Assembly (NCBI GenBank): GCA_019695335.1
Contig: JAIBAF010000023.1
Coordinates: 1-49,640 of the forward strand
Origin: a bacterium
Lineage (GTDB): Bacteria; CLD3; SB21
DNA: 49,640 bases
Reading direction: 5' to 3'
Shown here: positions 20,905-29,599 of the stretch, one piece after another
Numbering within the stretch: position 1 is the first letter of the stretch
How the letters are laid out: each line of letters begins with the position of its first letter
The notes under the pieces: generated by a model
What the model was told of the DNA's origin: nothing
Databases searched by the model: none
Seen by the model: only the letters and a program-made list of their open reading frames with translations
Made by a program: the position numbers and the translations under genes

Positions 20905-21084
20905 ATGCTATCGACTATCGTGAGAAAGGGTGAACCCTTCGAGAAGGCGGTGCGACGGTTTGAAACGGAATGCCGCAAAGCGCGGATCATTCAGACCTAT
21001 GTCGAAAAAGCCAATTACGTAAGTCCCAGCGAACGTAAACATCAGTCCCGCCGGCGGCGACGTCATGTTCATCCTGTCAATTGA
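20905..21084 (+). CDS. rpsU: Ribosomal protein bS21
   Basis: A 59-residue small-subunit protein involved in translation initiation. The translation begins MLSTIVRKGEPFEKAVRRF and contains CRKARIIQ and the basic end HQSRRRRRHVH, matching bS21. AGAGGTG lies a few bases before ATG. It is a single-gene unit ending at a strong terminator. Confidence 0.96.
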   Translation: MLSTIVRKGEPFEKAVRRFETECRKARIIQTYVEKANYVSPSERKHQSRRRRRHVHPVN

Positions 21085-21089
21085 TTTAT

Positions 21090-21128
21090 AAAAAATCGCG
21101 AGCTTGAAAGTTCGCGATTTTTATTTTT
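21090..21128 (+). terminator. Rho-independent terminator after rpsU
   Basis: AAAATCGCGA and TCGCGATTTT form a perfect ten-pair stem around the ten-base loop GCTTGAAAGT, followed by a T-rich run. It lies six bases after the rpsU stop. Confidence 0.93.
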
Positions 21129-21269: not shown

Positions 21270-22598
21270 GTGGAATCACTGGTCATTATCGGTAATGGCA
21301 TTACCGGCATTACGACGGCGCGGTTGGTTCGAAAACAAAGCGACCGGCCGATTATCGTTATTTCAGATGAAACAGATTTCTTCTATTCACGCCCGGCGCT
21401 CATGTATATTTACATGGGTCATATGAAATTTGAGCACACTAAACCGTACGAAGATTGGTTCTGGGAGAAAAATAAAATCCAGCTTTTGCGTGCAACGGTC
21501 ATGTCGATCGACACGGATGCAAAATCGATTGTGCTCAACAACGGTCAAAAGCTGCCCTACGGACAACTCGTGATTGCAACCGGTTCACGTACCAATAAAT
21601 TCGGATGGCCCGGACAAGATCTTCCGGGCGTGCAAGGGCTTTACGGGATGAGAGATATTGAATTGATGGAAAAAAATACGAGCAATATTTCAAAAGCCGT
21701 GATTGTTGGGGGAGGGTTGATCGGAATCGAAATGGCCGAAATGCTTCATTCACGCAATATTCCCGTTACTTTTCTGGTTCGCGAAACTAATTATTGGGAT
21801 AACATTCTTCCACAGGAAGAAGCAAAACTTGTGGGCAGGCATATTGGTGAATATGGAATTGACCTCAGACTGGGCACTCAATTAAAAGAAATTCTTGCTG
21901 GTAATGATGGCCGCGTGCGTGCCATTGTGACGGATAAAGGCGAGGAGATTGGATGCCAATTCGTTGGTCTCACGGCAGGCGTTGCCCCAAATACAGACGT
22001 TGCCAAAAATTCTAAAATCGAGATCAATCGAGGCGTACTAGTCAATGAATTTCTCGAGACTAATATTGCGGATGTTTATGCGGCGGGCGATTGTGCTGAA
22101 TTCAAAATGAACAGGCCTCGCCATCCTAAAATTGAGCAACTATGGTATACCGGACGCATGCAAGCTGAAGTTTTAGCTAAAACATTGTGCGGCAATAGAA
22201 CAGCTTATGATCGTGGAGTATGGTTTAATTCTGCTAAATTTTTCGATATTGAATATCAGACATACGGTTTTGTGAGTAATGTACCGGTGCAAGATGAAGA
22301 ATCATTGTATTGGGAACATCCGGATGGCAAACATAGCATCCGTATCGTTTATCATAAAACCGGTCAGACGGTGATCGGATTTAATTTATTTGGGATCCGT
22401 TACAGGCAGGCGATTTGTGAACGGTGGATCAAAGAACAACGTACCATCGAATATGTATTGGAAAATCTGGGTGCGGCCAATTTCGATCCTGAATTTTTCA
22501 GTGAGTTTGAGAAGGAAGCGATTGATTTATTCAATTCCAAACACCCGGAACGCAAAGTATTTCTTAAACGTCGCCGCGGATTATTCCAAAATGCATGA
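21270..22598 (+). CDS. FAD-dependent NAD(P)H oxidoreductase (NirB/rubredoxin-reductase-like)
   Basis: A 442-residue two-dinucleotide-fold flavoprotein. The FAD-binding N-terminus reads LVIIGNGITGITTAR, the NAD(P)-binding site lies in AVIVGGGLIGIEMAE, and the second FAD motif is VYAAGDCAEF. The family includes rubredoxin/ferredoxin reductases and the N-terminus of NirB. About 120 extra C-terminal residues of unknown role follow. The start is GTG 21270, five bases after AGGAG; an ATG two bases earlier is out of frame. The polyferredoxin gene follows after 24 bases, suggesting that electrons from NAD(P)H pass through this enzyme to or from that membrane protein. Confidence 0.88.
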   Translation: MESLVIIGNGITGITTARLVRKQSDRPIIVISDETDFFYSRPALMYIYMGHMKFEHTKPYEDWFWEKNKIQLLRATVMSIDTDAKSIVLNNGQKLPYGQLVIATGSRTNKFGWPGQDLPGVQGLYGMRDIELMEKNTSNISKAVIVGGGLIGIEMAEMLHSRNIPVTFLVRETNYWDNILPQEEAKLVGRHIGEYGIDLRLGTQLKEILAGNDGRVRAIVTDKGEEIGCQFVGLTAGVAPNTDVAKNSKIEINRGVLVNEFLETNIADVYAAGDCAEFKMNRPRHPKIEQLWYTGRMQAEVLAKTLCGNRTAYDRGVWFNSAKFFDIEYQTYGFVSNVPVQDEESLYWEHPDGKHSIRIVYHKTGQTVIGFNLFGIRYRQAICERWIKEQRTIEYVLENLGAANFDPEFFSEFEKEAIDLFNSKHPERKVFLKRRRGLFQNA

Positions 22599-22622: not shown

Positions 22623-23930
22623 ATGCAGCCGATTTCGATTGAATTACCGCATCACAATTATTCCGCGATCAAGAAAACCGGTTTGGTTTTATGCGTCGTT
22701 GGTTTTTTATTCATGATGATGGGGTTGATGGAGGTTTCGCGTTCCAATCCGGTTATGTTTTTTCTTTTGAGTGCCGGATTGATTATAGCCGGAGCGCTCG
22801 TATTTATTTTGCCGCAATTGAAGGAATCGCCGGCAGGGATTAAGCACAATCGTTTATTTTTTTTGTCGGCGACGTCGCGCGGACTGTTGGGTTGGGCTGC
22901 GGCCGTTTTTTTTACGGGATTTTATGTCATTCTGTACTGGTTTCCACAATATTTGGAAAATTTGATTCGTACGACCGATTGGTTAAGCTTTATTGTACGT
23001 GGTAAAGCGGCTGATCAATGGTTTTTGTATGGTTTCTATTATACGTTGGCGGTTATCGTCATGGGAATACGCATGATCGTCAAAAATCGACACAGCCGGT
23101 ACCAAATTATCCGGACGTGTTCGGTTATGTTTTTTCAACTTGGATTTTCATTTCTGATTCCGGGTTTATTGCAGCTTTTTAATCAACCTGAATTTTATTT
23201 TACGTATTTTTGGCCGTTGAAATATTCGTATTTATTTCCCAACGACGTTCACTGGCTTATGAGTCAGCCCGGAGGATTGGGCACGTTCATGATATTTTGG
23301 GGCGCGATAATGTCATTTGTTGCAACGCCAGTGCTGACTTATTTCTTCGGCAAACGTTGGTATTGTTCATGGGTGTGCGGCTGCGGAGGATTAGCCGAAA
23401 CGTTGGGCGATCCGTATCGCCAACTGTCCAATAAATCGCTGATGTCGTGGAAAATTGAACGGTATCTGATCTACAGTATTTTAGTTTTTGTCGTGATAAC
23501 GACTTTATTACTGTGGATTAATTCTGTAACTCAGGGTGCGATGTTTGGTTCATGGTCACAAACTTTTTCAAGCGCTTACGGCTTTTACATCGGAGCTTTA
23601 TTTTCGGGCGTCATCGGAGTCGGTTTTTACCCATTGATGGGTAGCCGCGTGTGGTGCCGTTTCGGATGTCCGATGGCCGCCGTATTAGGCTTGATACAAA
23701 AATACTGGTCTCGTTTTCGAATAACGTCCAATGGCGGTCAGTGCATCAGTTGTGGTAATTGTTCAACGTATTGTGAGATGGGTATTGATGTGCGGGCGTA
23801 TGCCATGAAAGGTCAAAATATTATTCGCGCTTCGTGTGTTGGTTGCGGTATTTGTTCAGCCGTGTGCCCGCGCGGCGTGCTGAATCTTGAAAACGGACCG
23901 TTGGAAGGACGTTATAATTTAGGTCGATAG
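22623..23930 (+). CDS. Membrane polyferredoxin (NapH/CcoG/NosR-like)
   Basis: A 435-residue membrane iron-sulfur protein with about eight TM helices. A C-terminal cytoplasmic ferredoxin domain has two 4Fe-4S motifs: CISCGNCSTYC and CVGCGICSAVCP. Two further Cys-rich loops follow TM helices, WYCSWVCGCGG and VWCRFGCPMAAVLG, as in NapH, NosR and CcoG. Such proteins move electrons across or along the membrane to periplasmic enzymes or metal centres. No nitrate, nitrous oxide or cytochrome oxidase gene lies near, so the acceptor is unknown. It is probably an operon partner of the flavin oxidoreductase. Confidence 0.88.
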   Translation: MQPISIELPHHNYSAIKKTGLVLCVVGFLFMMMGLMEVSRSNPVMFFLLSAGLIIAGALVFILPQLKESPAGIKHNRLFFLSATSRGLLGWAAAVFFTGFYVILYWFPQYLENLIRTTDWLSFIVRGKAADQWFLYGFYYTLAVIVMGIRMIVKNRHSRYQIIRTCSVMFFQLGFSFLIPGLLQLFNQPEFYFTYFWPLKYSYLFPNDVHWLMSQPGGLGTFMIFWGAIMSFVATPVLTYFFGKRWYCSWVCGCGGLAETLGDPYRQLSNKSLMSWKIERYLIYSILVFVVITTLLLWINSVTQGAMFGSWSQTFSSAYGFYIGALFSGVIGVGFYPLMGSRVWCRFGCPMAAVLGLIQKYWSRFRITSNGGQCISCGNCSTYCEMGIDVRAYAMKGQNIIRASCVGCGICSAVCPRGVLNLENGPLEGRYNLGR

Positions 23931-23999: not shown

Positions 24000-26432
24000 A
24001 TGCCATTAGATTTACGAAATTTCTACTTATTTAGAGCAATACTGGTTTGGATGGTATGCTCCCTCTTTTTTTTTGGTACACTCTTCGGCCAAAAAAGAAA
24101 AACCCGCTCAGTACGAAGTTCGGATAAAATCATAACCGTTGCATTGGACGGTTCAGGGCAATTTTCGTCAATTCAGGAAGCCATTGATTTTGCCGAATTC
24201 AATTCACGCATCAAGATCAAAAGCGGTATTTACCATGAAGCATTGATGCTGAAAAGCTTTGTGAATATTGACGGAGAAGGCGTCGGCAAAACGATTATCA
24301 TATCTGATGGGGATCAACCTGTTTTACAGGCCTATAATCTCAGCGGCGGTTTGATGACTGACTTATCGTTTGAATTTAGTAAACCGACAGCCCTCCCTGT
24401 TTTTACGGCACGGTATTCCACATTTACAATTGAAAAATGTTCATTCCGTTTCGGGACTTATGGCGCGGACATTTCATCGAATAGTTCCGTTCAAATGCGT
24501 CAATGTACATTTGCCAGTAACTCCGTCTCAGGGGTCAGAATTGACAAACGCAGTACTGGAACCGTTTCAGGTGGACTGATTTTTAATAACGGAGGAGACG
24601 GTATTCAATTCATCGCTTACGCCAGTTCCTCAGTTGAACATAACATAATCAGGAATAATGCGGGACATGGAATTATTCTGGACAAAAATTCTGTCAACAG
24701 AATTACAGGTAATTATATCTATGATAATGGCAAAAATGGAATTCACGTTACCGGTAATGCAAGCCCGATTTTAAAAAATAATACCATCCTGAAAAACGGT
24801 AAAGATAGCAACGATACGTTCGGCTATGGTATTTTCATCAGCAACACCGCTTCAATGACGCTGATCAATAATAACATCGTCAAAAATAAATTTGGAATTG
24901 GCGTAGTCAATACCCGCGACATTCAATTATCGTATAATAATCTTTGGTCGAACAAAGATAATAATTATGTCAACATAAGCCCTTCCTCAACCGATGTGAG
25001 TTTCGATCCCAAATTTGTCAATGAACTGCAAAACGATTTTCGAATCGATACGAGTTCGGCATTATACGTTGCCGGCGAAAAAAAATTATCGATTGGTGCG
25101 GATTATGATTTCGTAAAAAGTCAGAATAAACAGCGAACGGATTATTTAAAAACGCAGGCGACGAAAGAACTTGCCCGTGGCAACTGGTATCTTGCTTATC
25201 AGTCGGCGCAGGAGATTGTCAGCATCGACAAGGATGATCAGGAAGGTAAGACGCTTCTTAAAAAATCCGGGAGCGAATTGGCCGGTCATTATATCATCCA
25301 GGCCCGGGATGAATTTGAAAACGATAATATTAATCTGGCAAATAATTTTTTGCGGATGGCGTTTACATACGATCCCGAGAGCAGTGAAGGCAAAGAACTC
25401 AAAGATCGGATCGACGAACAGTCACGGTTGGATCAAATCAAATTTTTTGGCGTGCTTGGGCTGGCTATTGCAGGGACATTTGGGCTGGGATTTTGGGCGC
25501 GTAAACGAATTCAAATCAGCGAATTACGGCGTCAGGCGAAGTGGTGGCTGGATGATGCGGAGGAACACGTGGAGTTGGCCCGTGGAGCTGAAAGTGATAA
25601 GCATGCGCCTGATGACATGAAGTTGGCCGTCGATCAATTTAAAGAAGCACAAACGTCATTTGAACATAAAGATTATGAAATGTGCGATCGTCATTGCAGT
25701 GAAACCGTCCGGCTTTCCAACCGCGCCCGTGAAGCAGCCGACCGGTATAAACAAATTCGTAAAGATGCTCTCTTTGAGGTCAGCAATGCCGAAGCTGAAA
25801 TGCGTAGTTTCCGGGAAAGTGATATTTTTGTAAAGTTCGCCGACGGCGCAAAGGAATTGGCTTTTTACCTAGAACGCGCGCAGGATGCGTTGCTTCATCA
25901 GCAATTTGTACTAGCCAAAGAAATTGCCGAAGATATTCAGAACTCTATTCGTCAGTTCAAAGATGATTATCATAAAGAGAGTGAATCCGAAGTTCTGAAG
26001 CTGATTGAACAATCGGAAGAATTGACTATCGCGGCACTGGCCAGTAATACCAGCGCCGATATCATTATGGCCGTTATCGATTTCAAAGCCGAGCTGGAAT
26101 TACTCAAAACCGGTTTTAAAAATGGCCAAATTACCATCGACGAAGTGAAACCGCAAATTGTGCAGATCAAAGATTTTATCGAGGAAGTTCTACGTATCGG
26201 CTCTTCCGAAGAAACAGTGCCACGATCCGGCCGTAAGAAAACTTTCTATGAAATTTTGGGAGTGAAAGAAGATGCGACCGTTGAACAGATTAAATCGGTT
26301 TATCGAAAACTCAGTATGATTTATCATCCCGATATGAATGTTGCTGATGAACTGGGCATTGCCGGGGATAATCGGTTTAAAGAAATCAAAGAAGCTTACG
26401 AAGCGCTTATGACTGAGAAAGCCGGAAAATAG
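24000..26432 (+). CDS. Beta-helix / TM / J-domain fusion protein
   Basis: An 810-residue protein that I cannot match to a described architecture. A hydrophobic signal or anchor (ILVWMVCSLFFFGTLFG) is followed, at residues 40-370, by a right-handed parallel beta-helix of NosD/pectinesterase type (ITVALDGSGQFSSIQEAIDF; repeats such as GDGIQFIAYASSSVEHNIIR). TPR-like helices (375-475) precede a TM segment at about 480-500. A long helical, partly coiled region leads to a C-terminal J domain at about 746-806 with intact HPD at 776-778 (YHPDMN). The predicted topology puts the beta-helix outside and the J domain in the cytoplasm, where it would recruit DnaK. A histidine kinase gene follows after eight bases. 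The start has no clear ribosome-binding site. Confidence 0.85.
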   Translation: MPLDLRNFYLFRAILVWMVCSLFFFGTLFGQKRKTRSVRSSDKIITVALDGSGQFSSIQEAIDFAEFNSRIKIKSGIYHEALMLKSFVNIDGEGVGKTIIISDGDQPVLQAYNLSGGLMTDLSFEFSKPTALPVFTARYSTFTIEKCSFRFGTYGADISSNSSVQMRQCTFASNSVSGVRIDKRSTGTVSGGLIFNNGGDGIQFIAYASSSVEHNIIRNNAGHGIILDKNSVNRITGNYIYDNGKNGIHVTGNASPILKNNTILKNGKDSNDTFGYGIFISNTASMTLINNNIVKNKFGIGVVNTRDIQLSYNNLWSNKDNNYVNISPSSTDVSFDPKFVNELQNDFRIDTSSALYVAGEKKLSIGADYDFVKSQNKQRTDYLKTQATKELARGNWYLAYQSAQEIVSIDKDDQEGKTLLKKSGSELAGHYIIQARDEFENDNINLANNFLRMAFTYDPESSEGKELKDRIDEQSRLDQIKFFGVLGLAIAGTFGLGFWARKRIQISELRRQAKWWLDDAEEHVELARGAESDKHAPDDMKLAVDQFKEAQTSFEHKDYEMCDRHCSETVRLSNRAREAADRYKQIRKDALFEVSNAEAEMRSFRESDIFVKFADGAKELAFYLERAQDALLHQQFVLAKEIAEDIQNSIRQFKDDYHKESESEVLKLIEQSEELTIAALASNTSADIIMAVIDFKAELELLKTGFKNGQITIDEVKPQIVQIKDFIEEVLRIGSSEETVPRSGRKKTFYEILGVKEDATVEQIKSVYRKLSMIYHPDMNVADELGIAGDNRFKEIKEAYEALMTEKAGK

Positions 26433-26440
26433 GAGCAAGA

Positions 26441-27817
26441 TTGAGTATTAAAAATTTTTTCAAGCGTGGAGCACAATCGTCAAAAAAACCGCTTGTAATT
26501 TTTTGTATCATTGTTGTATTGCTGACTGCACAGATCGGTTGGTGGATGTATTTCCAGATTCAGCAGAATAATGTCTTGCACGGTCTTCATGAAAACATAT
26601 TACAAATTCGAGGCCGTCAGACGCTGACGGAAATTAATCAGGCGTACGGCAGTTTGGTGATTCAAAATATACGGCATGGTTTTTTTGGCAGTCCTATCAT
26701 TGCACGCCACGTTCCGATTGAAGAAATCAGTGGTACTCCGGCCATGCCTCCGATTTTTTTGAATGGCCAATGGAATTCATTTTATGTAACCAACGGCGTA
26801 ATTTATTATAAAGATTTTGACGACAGAGTTTATCGTACTGTTGTAAACTGGGATCTTATTCAGGAATTTTTGGGCCGGGGCGATGAGACTTATCTAGTCG
26901 GTCCGACGCATGATTACACTAGCGGTCAATTTATATCCGGGCCTTCACCGTGGTTGATTCTTCCAGTCGACATTAAAGTCAAATCCGATGTTCTGAGTAA
27001 TTTAGATAGTCGTTCAGATCGCAAAACAGCTATGTTTGTTTCGGAGGGTGTTTTTTTCTGCATCCTTTTGCTGGTTGGAATTTATCTGATGTTTCTCGCT
27101 TTCAGGAGAGAGGTATTACTGCAATCCTATCAGAAAAATTTTATTCTGAGCGTGACGCATGAATTCAAATCGCCGCTAGCCTCGTTGAAATTGTATATTC
27201 AAACATTGTCGTCACGCGAGGTTCCGCTGGAGAAACGAAAAAACTTTTTGATACATTCTCTCCACGACGTTGAGCGACTCGAAAAATTAGTTGAAAATGT
27301 TTTGGAAGCTGCACGGCTTGATCGCGATGACTATCAATATGTCATGAAACCGTTGGACTTGTCGGAAGTTGCTCAGCAATCGCTAAAAAAAATCGAACAT
27401 TATGCTAATGAAGAAACGGTGCAACTTGATACCGATATTCATTCTTCCGTTGTAATCAAAGGCGATCAGCATGCTATTTACTCGGTCTTTGATAACCTGA
27501 TAGAGAATGCCGTCAAATATTCGGTGACTCCCAAAAAAATTTCGATAAAATTATACACCCTTCAGCGTCAAGCGGTTTTTGAAATTCGTGATAATGGCGT
27601 CGGAATTGAAAAAAAAGAAATGGAGTGGATTTTTCAGAAATTTTATCGTGTTGGCAATGAAATGACCCGCAATACTAAGGGCACCGGCATCGGCTTATTT
27701 ATTGTCAAAAAAATTGTTACGCGTCATAAAGGTGATATCCGCGTTCATAGCGATGGATTGAATCAAGGTACAACTTTTACTGTGACTTTCCCGTTGTTTA
27801 ATGAAACCAAGGAATAA
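26441..27817 (+). CDS. Membrane sensor histidine kinase
   Basis: A 458-residue classical sensor kinase. TM1 (VIFCIIVVLLTAQIGWWMYF) and TM2 (GVFFCILLLVGIYLMFLAF) enclose an extracytoplasmic domain of about 150 residues that I do not recognise. HisKA has phospho-His240 in SVTHEFKSPLAS. HATPase_c shows FDNLIENAVKYS, DNGVGIEKKE and GTGIGLFIVK. The start is TTG 26441, seven bases after AGGAG. It lies directly behind the beta-helix/J-domain gene and overlaps or abuts its regulator, so the three genes form one operon. The signal is unknown. Confidence 0.93.
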   Translation: MSIKNFFKRGAQSSKKPLVIFCIIVVLLTAQIGWWMYFQIQQNNVLHGLHENILQIRGRQTLTEINQAYGSLVIQNIRHGFFGSPIIARHVPIEEISGTPAMPPIFLNGQWNSFYVTNGVIYYKDFDDRVYRTVVNWDLIQEFLGRGDETYLVGPTHDYTSGQFISGPSPWLILPVDIKVKSDVLSNLDSRSDRKTAMFVSEGVFFCILLLVGIYLMFLAFRREVLLQSYQKNFILSVTHEFKSPLASLKLYIQTLSSREVPLEKRKNFLIHSLHDVERLEKLVENVLEAARLDRDDYQYVMKPLDLSEVAQQSLKKIEHYANEETVQLDTDIHSSVVIKGDQHAIYSVFDNLIENAVKYSVTPKKISIKLYTLQRQAVFEIRDNGVGIEKKEMEWIFQKFYRVGNEMTRNTKGTGIGLFIVKKIVTRHKGDIRVHSDGLNQGTTFTVTFPLFNETKE

Positions 27818-27824
27818 TTTTTAT

Positions 27825-28523
27825 ATGTTGCAAAAAATCCTGTTAGTCGAAGATGAAAAAAATATAGCTGAATCGTTGGTATTCAACCTTGAACATGAAT
27901 ACGATGTTGTGTGGGCCGAAACCGGAGAAAAAGCTCTTAAAGAGTGGGGAGATAACCAATTTGATTTGATCGTGCTGGATGTCATGTTGCCGCGTTTGAG
28001 CGGCTTTGACGTATGCAAAACCATTCGTCAGGAAGATGTACAGACGCCGATTCTATTTCTGACGGCCAAGAATCAAGAACGGGATCGGATTGAAGGCTTT
28101 CAGATCGGTGGAGACGATTATTTAGGTAAACCATTTAATCTGGACGAATTTCTACTCCGTGTGAAAGCGCTCATTCGCCGCAGTCAACGGACTCCGATCG
28201 TGAGTGCGGAATTGCCCAATCACTATCATTTCGGGCTGGCGACGATCGATTTTGAAAACTATGAAGCGACAGCCAATGGACAGAAAATTCCGCTTACCAA
28301 GAAAGAATGTTTGTTGATGAAGCTGTTGATCGAGAATGAAGGACAGGTTGTGACTCGCGACGAGATTTTGTCTAAAGTTTGGGGTTATGAAACGTTGCCG
28401 TCTACACGTACGATCGATAATTTTATTGTAAAATTACGCAGTTATTTCGAACCGAATCCGAAAGAACCCCGATTTATTCATTCAATTCGCGGTGTGGGAT
28501 ATAAGTTTACTAAAAGTGAGTGA
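27825..28523 (+). CDS. OmpR-family response regulator
   Basis: A 232-residue receiver plus winged-helix DNA-binding protein. The receiver has LLVEDEKN, phospho-Asp52 in LIVLDVMLPRLSGF, FLTAK and KPFNLDE. The C-terminal Trans_reg_C domain shows LTKKECLLMKLLIENEGQVV, STRTIDNFIVKLR and FIHSIRGVGYKF. I chose ATG 27825 because the receiver starts there. An in-frame ATG at 27801 lies inside the kinase gene and adds eight residues. AAGGA precedes the chosen start by about 11 bases. It is the cognate partner of the kinase by position. Confidence 0.94.
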   Translation: MLQKILLVEDEKNIAESLVFNLEHEYDVVWAETGEKALKEWGDNQFDLIVLDVMLPRLSGFDVCKTIRQEDVQTPILFLTAKNQERDRIEGFQIGGDDYLGKPFNLDEFLLRVKALIRRSQRTPIVSAELPNHYHFGLATIDFENYEATANGQKIPLTKKECLLMKLLIENEGQVVTRDEILSKVWGYETLPSTRTIDNFIVKLRSYFEPNPKEPRFIHSIRGVGYKFTKSE

Positions 28524-28531
28524 GGTTAAAG

Positions 28532-29599
28532 CTACTTGACCAGCACCATTTTTTTGGTCAAAACTGATCCATCGAAAGCAAGTCTTACAAAGTAAATTCC
28601 ACTCGGCACAACGGCATTTTTATAGTCCATTCCGTCCCATGTGAATTCGTGAACGCCCACTTCTTTTTCGCCTTCATATAAAGTTCGAATGTTATTACCG
28701 AGAAGATCATATACTCGAAGCTCTACAAAACCTGATTGACGCAATTCAAATTTGATGGTTGTTGAGAGATTAAAAGGATTAGGATAATTTTGTTCGAGCG
28801 AAAACGTTTCAGGGCCGACAGTTTTGACTTTTTTGCTGCTGCGGCTGTTTTGTCTCTGAGCAATTTTTTGCACCGAGTTGAAGATAGTATCCTCTCCGGC
28901 AAAAAAGCGCACTTGATCCAGATTGGCTTTGAGAAAATTGGGTACTGACGATTTGGTCAGAGCGCCGATATAACTTGTAGCGCCTGTATTAACCTGCGTG
29001 ATTTTAGTGAAGGGTAATTGCTTTACGATTCGTCCATTAACATAAAAAGTAATACTGTCATGCGCCCCATCGCAGTATGCGCCAAGGTGAACCCAGCGGC
29101 TCGCGTCCAAAGTTGTATCGGATGAAAATATTTCGCTGTGACCCTCGCGGATTTCAAGTTTTGGAATATTATTTTCGATGAAAAATCTGTAGCCAGATAC
29201 AAATCCGTTGTCGGCGTTAATAATTTCGCCATTCACATTGGTTGAATAAAGATACAACCACATCGACACCGTATAAGCAACGTGACCGTTAAGATTAATG
29301 TCGGCGTTAGCGGGCAATTTTAAGAAATGACCGATGCCATCAAGTAAAAGGTAATTACCACCTGCCGGGCTTGGTTTCATAAACCGGGCAATTTCAAAAT
29401 TACCTTTCTGTAAATAATCTTTGCTGATTACTTCCTGGATCCATTCCCCTGACGAATCATCTTTGTAAAAAGAATAGTTATCCGTGTCGCCAAAATTCAG
29501 TTCCAACTTCAACTGAGCGACACTACTCCCGCTGATAAAAAAAGCAAGGAGAACTATGAAGGGGTTAAAAAAGTAAATTAGTTTCGTAACAAGGACCAT
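28532..29599 (-). CDS. Secreted LamG-domain protein with T9SS sorting tail
   Basis: A 355-residue exported protein. A signal peptide (FFNPFIVLLAFFISGSSVAQ) is followed by a LamG/concanavalin-like lectin domain at residues about 75-245 (YTVSMWLYLYS, HDSITFYVNGRIVKQL, LDQVRFFAGE). The C-terminal type IX secretion signal begins with NYPNPFNLSTTIKFEL and ends GIYFVRLAF then KKMVLVK. Such domains guide export across the outer membrane and are usually cleaved. The lectin-type domain suggests glycan binding, but no enzyme domain is attached. The gene converges on the OmpR-type regulator gene with an eight-base gap. Confidence 0.9.
   Translation of the reverse strand: MVLVTKLIYFFNPFIVLLAFFISGSSVAQLKLELNFGDTDNYSFYKDDSSGEWIQEVISKDYLQKGNFEIARFMKPSPAGGNYLLLDGIGHFLKLPANADINLNGHVAYTVSMWLYLYSTNVNGEIINADNGFVSGYRFFIENNIPKLEIREGHSEIFSSDTTLDASRWVHLGAYCDGAHDSITFYVNGRIVKQLPFTKITQVNTGATSYIGALTKSSVPNFLKANLDQVRFFAGEDTIFNSVQKIAQRQNSRSSKKVKTVGPETFSLEQNYPNPFNLSTTIKFELRQSGFVELRVYDLLGNNIRTLYEGEKEVGVHEFTWDGMDYKNAVVPSGIYFVRLAFDGSVLTKKMVLVK

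Follow-up and report, generated by a model that had tools for sequence, protein, structure and literature searches.

A reading frame which joins a parallel beta-helix, a transmembrane helix and a J domain, and which is followed directly by genes for a sensor kinase and a response regulator, raises the question whether an event outside the cytoplasm could be coupled to DnaK at the membrane. Such a frame was pointed out in an earlier note on the bacterial DNA analysed here, a stretch of 49,640 nucleotides referred to as the window, with the suggestion that the outside event recruits DnaK and that the kinase and regulator report or control this step. The protein encoded at 24000–26432 is called BHJ in the following, and the features of the locus are collected in Table 1.

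Table 1. Features of the BHJ locus, with positions in the window
Feature	Position	Strand	Basis
rpsU, ribosomal protein S21, short ORF under the size cut-off of the ORF list	20905-21084	+	
FAD/NAD oxidoreductase (flavoprotein), conserved upstream neighbour, judged outside the module	21270..22598	+	Pfam; occurs without BHJ in the sister family
Polyferredoxin of the NapH type, membrane protein; conserved neighbour upstream, likewise outside the module	22623..23930	+	Pfam; occurs without BHJ in the sister family
BHJ gene, 810 aa: signal, beta-helix, TPR-like region, TM, helical linker, J domain	24000..26432	+	ORF list, Pfam, AlphaFold2, hydropathy
Parallel beta-helix, residues 44-324, PF13229/NosD/CASH type, predicted periplasmic	24129..24971	+	Pfam, AlphaFold2, Foldseek
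TPR-like helical hairpins, residues 367-478, predicted periplasmic	25098..25433	+	AlphaFold2, Foldseek
TM helix, residues ~482-500, K/R-rich C-terminal flank	25443..25499	+	AlphaFold2, hydropathy
Helical region, predicted cytoplasmic, residues 503-745	25506..26234	+	AlphaFold2; mean pairwise identity 53-60%
J domain, residues 746-810, HPD 776-778	26235..26429	+	Pfam, alignment, dN/dS
Two-TM sensor histidine kinase, 458 aa, TTG start, HisKA + HATPase_c, ~155-aa fast-evolving periplasmic domain	26441..27817	+	ORF list, Pfam
OmpR/PhoB-family response regulator, 240 aa, Response_reg + Trans_reg_C	27801..28523	+	ORF list, Pfam

The succession of parts read in the earlier note, a signal, a beta-helix, TPR-like helices, a transmembrane helix, a linker and a J domain with its HPD motif at 776–778, was recovered concordantly by Pfam, AlphaFold2 and hydropathy analysis. 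Pfam matched Beta_helix PF13229 (E=1.3e-22) and NosD PF05048 (E=2.6e-16) as well as DnaJ PF00226 at residues 749–807 (E=2.1e-17, 63.4 bits against a cut-off of 27.8); a DUF4398 hit at residues 517–584 (E=1e-4) lay under the cut-off and was read as helical resemblance. The structure prediction proposed in the note was made with AlphaFold2 on the seven orthologues described below and reached a mean pLDDT of 79.7. It yielded a beta-helix at 44–324, hairpins at 367–478, helices up to 735 and a C-terminal J fold at 749–809, with the transmembrane segment contained in one long helix from 462 to 533; the pTM of 0.45 marks the orientation of the domains as uncertain, and confidence is low in the transmembrane segment and in the loop after HPD. 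Foldseek matched the beta-helix part to the mannuronan epimerases AlgE4, AlgE6 and AlgG, to pectin methylesterases and to NosD (7osf). While these enzymes and the NosD/CASH-type proteins, all periplasmic or secreted, share the fold with BHJ, the alignment of the seven orthologues contains no invariant histidine in the beta-helix, and no catalytic function was therefore assigned to it; nor could a ligand site be identified in BHJ. The TPR and J co-chaperone P58IPK (DNAJC3) was also among the matches of the model. It shares with BHJ the combination of TPR and C-terminal J domain but is a soluble protein of the ER lumen with both parts on the same side of the membrane, whereas in BHJ they are predicted on opposite sides, and with a TM-score of 0.09 the likeness is weak.

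Hydropathy gave two clear peaks, the signal at about residues 10–28 and the transmembrane helix at about 482–500, and a weak third hydrophobic segment near residue 675 inside a conserved helix of the predicted cytoplasmic part. Directly after the transmembrane helix, the flank has a net charge between +3 and +6 in six orthologues, and in the seventh (locus L041) no hydrophobic segment of BHJ rises above the cut-off. Because of this positive flank the positive-inside rule predicts the J domain on the inner rather than the outer side, as the earlier note had it. These predictions argue strongly for a beta-helix outside and a J domain in the cytoplasm together with DnaK, whether the signal is cleaved or uncleaved. 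The transmembrane segment is variable in sequence and conserved in hydrophobicity; its mean pairwise identity among the orthologues is 38%, that of the beta-helix 54%.

Within BHJ, conservation is highest in the J domain. Its mean pairwise identity is 77%, compared with 53–60% in the other folded parts, and between the two closest species its dN/dS is 0.019, compared with 0.053 for BHJ as a whole. The HPD motif which the note had described as intact (H776-P777-D778), lying within the PF00226 match, is unchanged in all seven orthologues. Most positions which it shares with DnaJ and the CbpA-like protein of this genome are likewise invariant in BHJ, most residues at the DnaK-facing positions of DnaJ are kept, and the closest solved sequences are those of E. 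coli DnaJ, including the chain from its complex with DnaK (5NRO). Across the family, the identity to the copy in the window's genome is 66–78% for the J domain of BHJ (outside the genus), 68–79% for that of the CbpA-like protein and 75–86% for that of DnaJ. As judged from these comparisons the J domain of BHJ is constrained about as strongly as those of DnaJ and the CbpA-like protein within the family. Two deviations might suggest that it has been kept as a structural or oligomerisation element after loss of its DnaK function: the position of R36 in E. coli DnaJ is occupied by methionine or alanine, and the loop following HPD is three residues longer than in that protein. With an invariant HPD and with conservation and dN/dS values resembling those of active J domains, such a loss is very improbable, and the sequences speak strongly for a functional J domain with DnaK as its partner. 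DnaJ models align to BHJ over the J-domain part only, the zinc-finger and beta-sandwich regions of DnaJ and CbpA being absent. By domain content, a J domain with HPD without the rest of DnaJ, BHJ is a class C J-domain protein, a heterogeneous class which includes transmembrane members and shares only the J domain with DnaJ and CbpA (PMC8215388).

A partner is encoded in the same genome. The earlier note had remarked that the hrcA-grpE operon lacks dnaJ, and this is true for the window, where the identity of grpE was confirmed, but the implied absence of dnaJ from the organism was ruled out: a complete DnaJ gene is located on contig C31, and complete DnaK and CbpA-like genes are clustered on contig C3 with those of Lon, HtpX and a DegP-like protease (these three named from sequence reading). 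Among the three J-domain proteins of the genome BHJ is the only one with this membrane architecture.

The phylum sample comprised nine genomes, seven of the window's family and two of a sister family. Full-length BHJ is present in all seven of the former, which represent four genera, at 44–88% identity, and is absent from both of the latter. BHJ, kinase and regulator are adjacent and in the same order in each of the seven. As six other genomes contain the full-length protein in this gene order, an assembly join of two genes at 24000–26432 is excluded. More generally, although all relatives found come from draft or MAG-type genomes, the idea that fusion or linkage is an artefact, be it a join or a chance neighbourhood, has next to no probability in view of seven separate assemblies from four genera with the same protein and order and a dN/dS of 0.053 over the whole length of BHJ. 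Profile searches, which scored few candidates per genome so that a diverged homologue could escape, covered 377 further genomes from across the bacteria, 396 of one large phylum and 133 of another, and a full-length relative turned up in none of them. A short-pattern scan through the genomes of 84,980 species found four loci, of which three match contigs of the family already sampled in length or position and the fourth is the contig of genome G005. Within the genomes searched, BHJ is restricted to one family.

Directly after BHJ, as had been noted, follow the kinase, whose start lies 8 bases downstream in the window (2–15 bases across the seven family genomes), and the OmpR-type regulator, whose frame overlaps that of the kinase by 17 bases. 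By their Pfam domains (HisKA and HATPase_c, REC and Trans_reg_C) the two form an OmpR/PhoB-type two-component system; with 195.6 bits against a cut-off of 270 for the regulator and 181.3 against 334 for the kinase, they fall short of the equivalogs of the phosphate system PhoR/PhoB. The periplasmic part of the kinase evolves fast (39% mean pairwise identity) and is longer in the window's family than in the sister-family genome G001, which would suit a new periplasmic partner; Foldseek matches of the kinase model were mostly kinase cores, and the sensor domain gave no indication of the identity of its signal.

The pair is also found without BHJ. Both genomes of the sister family contain regulator orthologues (51–58% identity, paralogues at most 42%), a kinase from that family used as query retrieves the window kinase as clear best match (234 versus 112 bits), and no J gene stands alongside the pair there. 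A kinase match at E<=1e-60 was obtained in 23 of 386 genomes, and a J-domain HMM applied to flanks of about 1.5 kb around the kinase loci was positive only at the seven loci of the window's family. By this distribution the kinase-regulator pair is older than its linkage to BHJ; since no J gene accompanies the orthologous pairs of the sister family or the similar ones of other phyla, it would work without the J protein, and a single lineage would have either gained BHJ next to this old pair or retained it there. Thus the linkage to the kinase claimed before holds throughout one family and does not extend to the related pairs outside it. Architecture, conservation and adjacency of BHJ are computational observations; the adjacency could mean shared regulation alone, and the set of seven BHJ sequences is too small for coevolution analysis. 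Related kinase-regulator pairs adjoin hemL (glutamate-1-semialdehyde aminomutase) in genomes G304 (L113) and G163 (L116) and, read by eye, probably hemE in G312 (L124); the ancestral signal of the pair may be connected with heme or with the redox state of the envelope. About 50 bp upstream of BHJ in L041 (G005) there is a direct-repeat-like sequence with the spacing of a PhoB-type operator, ATATCAG-N4-ATGTCAG, which was noticed by eye and is without statistical support.

Upstream of BHJ lie the genes of a flavoprotein and a NapH-like protein, preceded by a strong terminator at 21091–21122 just after rpsU. Both show the same degree of conservation in the sister family, where no BHJ gene adjoins them. 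A hairpin separates the NapH-like gene from BHJ in the genera g2, g3 and g4 (z = -5.5, -2.7 and -4.8; that of g2 without a clear U-run), indicating that BHJ, kinase and regulator form a transcription unit of their own there, and no hairpin was found at this place in the window's genus. A five-gene redox-chaperone operon was therefore rejected as the unit. Further upstream, before the flavoprotein gene, two other genera have a gene for an SO_0444-type Cu/Zn efflux transporter (L039:16971-18080, confirmed; L040:16760-17821, by eye) as well as an FG-GAP protein gene. On the other side, convergent with the regulator, the window contains at 28532–29599 on the minus strand a gene whose product combines a LamG domain with a sorting domain for type IX secretion; this gene is conserved beside the regulator in all but one of the seven genomes, and in the exception, L040, the corresponding stretch reads as N.

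It was considered whether BHJ, the flavoprotein and the NapH-like protein form a NosD-like unit for metal or redox maturation, in which the J domain would aid the loading of an exported redox enzyme. The beta-helix matches NosD in both Pfam and Foldseek, the redox genes are directly upstream of BHJ wherever the contig extends, and the Cu/Zn efflux gene occurs upstream in the genome of another genus; the independent conservation of the two redox genes in the sister family, the hairpins in three genera and a score of 35.3 bits for the NosD model TIGR04247, far from its NCBIfam cut-off of 300, nevertheless render this account improbable. The conserved neighbours of BHJ (flavoprotein, NapH-like protein, kinase and regulator) include no nosZFY genes.

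For a membrane J protein which acts on signal transduction a precedent is known. E. coli DjlA has one transmembrane helix and a C-terminal cytoplasmic J domain, activates the Rcs phosphorelay in dependence on DnaK and GrpE, an effect lost upon H233Q mutation, and needs its membrane anchoring, the sequence of the transmembrane helix itself being replaceable (PMC11709261). In Caulobacter, DjlA is a membrane J protein which serves envelope proteins and requires its J histidine (PMC10754441). BHJ resembles DjlA in the single transmembrane helix, free to vary in sequence in both, in the C-terminal J domain, predicted to be cytoplasmic, and in having a domain between the two. DjlA differs in its short N-terminal periplasmic stretch and its TerB-like domain, whereas BHJ has about 450 periplasmic residues; no TerB match was found in BHJ by Pfam at E<=0.1, the region between membrane and J domain consists of helical hairpins in the model, and the DjlA family model PRK09430 gave 26.5 bits with a cut-off of 162. 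E. coli DjlB and DjlC serve Hsp70 at the plasma membrane as membrane-anchored class C J proteins (PMC8215388), a class and location which they would have in common with BHJ, but they are tail-anchored, have no periplasmic domain and work with a dedicated Hsp70, HscC. Searches of the openly licensed literature found no beta-helix/J fusion, and within this scope the earlier statement of a layout without a described system stands for the exact domain order; as DjlA is a close functional precedent (PMC11709261), it does not stand for the function. BHJ belongs to a known kind of protein, the class C J-domain proteins, in a layout not reported before, with DjlA as the known functional parallel.

On the strength of the DjlA precedents from E. 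coli and Caulobacter, BHJ is read as a recruiter of DnaK at the inner membrane, acting in a family-restricted envelope-stress module together with the older kinase-regulator pair, and we regard this reading as moderately probable. BHJ would be a class C J-domain protein which crosses the inner membrane once and whose J domain, on the cytoplasmic side, recruits and stimulates the cell's DnaK at the membrane, while the periplasmic beta-helix and TPR-like region would bind an envelope ligand, either a surface polymer or an exported protein, and this binding would position or gate the recruitment. The co-transcribed kinase and regulator would be an older envelope-sensing pair to which BHJ was joined in the window's family; expression of BHJ is most likely governed by the regulator, and the kinase for its part may be a client of DnaK and BHJ, as RcsD and IgaA are for DjlA in E. 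coli. Ligand binding, gating, autoregulation and action on the kinase are steps which we infer. Small heat-shock protein genes are located beyond the regulator in g2, g3 and g4, followed by lon in g2 and g4, where the contig continues (loci among L037–L041; L098), and in the window's genus this pair has moved elsewhere; the nearby hsp20 and lon genes are a faint hint at proteostasis.

It is possible, though not likely, that BHJ acts at the membrane solely as a chaperone, in export or in the biogenesis of membrane proteins, and takes DnaK to envelope proteins which are emerging or retained, the kinase and regulator setting only its level and receiving no signal from it. In favour of this role, Caulobacter DjlA is induced together with proteins to which it binds, namely outer-membrane proteins and components of efflux systems (PMC10754441). 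In other genera hsp20 and lon are found close by, and the kinase pair predates the linkage and functions where BHJ is absent. Such a role would, however, not need a large periplasmic beta-helix and TPR-like region, and the adjacency to the kinase is retained down to 44% identity, although regulation alone could explain the latter. A complete transmembrane relay, in which a ligand of the beta-helix alters the recruitment of DnaK by the J domain and DnaK in turn remodels the co-encoded kinase, goes beyond the preferred reading of BHJ as a membrane recruiter of DnaK and is rather unlikely.

While membrane-anchored J proteins of the DjlA type are known, their trigger is not, and BHJ adds to such a protein a large periplasmic domain beside a fixed kinase-regulator pair. 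The family therefore offers a natural case in which it can be asked whether the recruitment of DnaK is under the control of an outside signal and whether DnaK tunes a kinase, with the genomes that contain the kinase pair but no J protein as an evolutionary control. If the relay were true, Hsp70 would be built into the wiring of a two-component signalling system.
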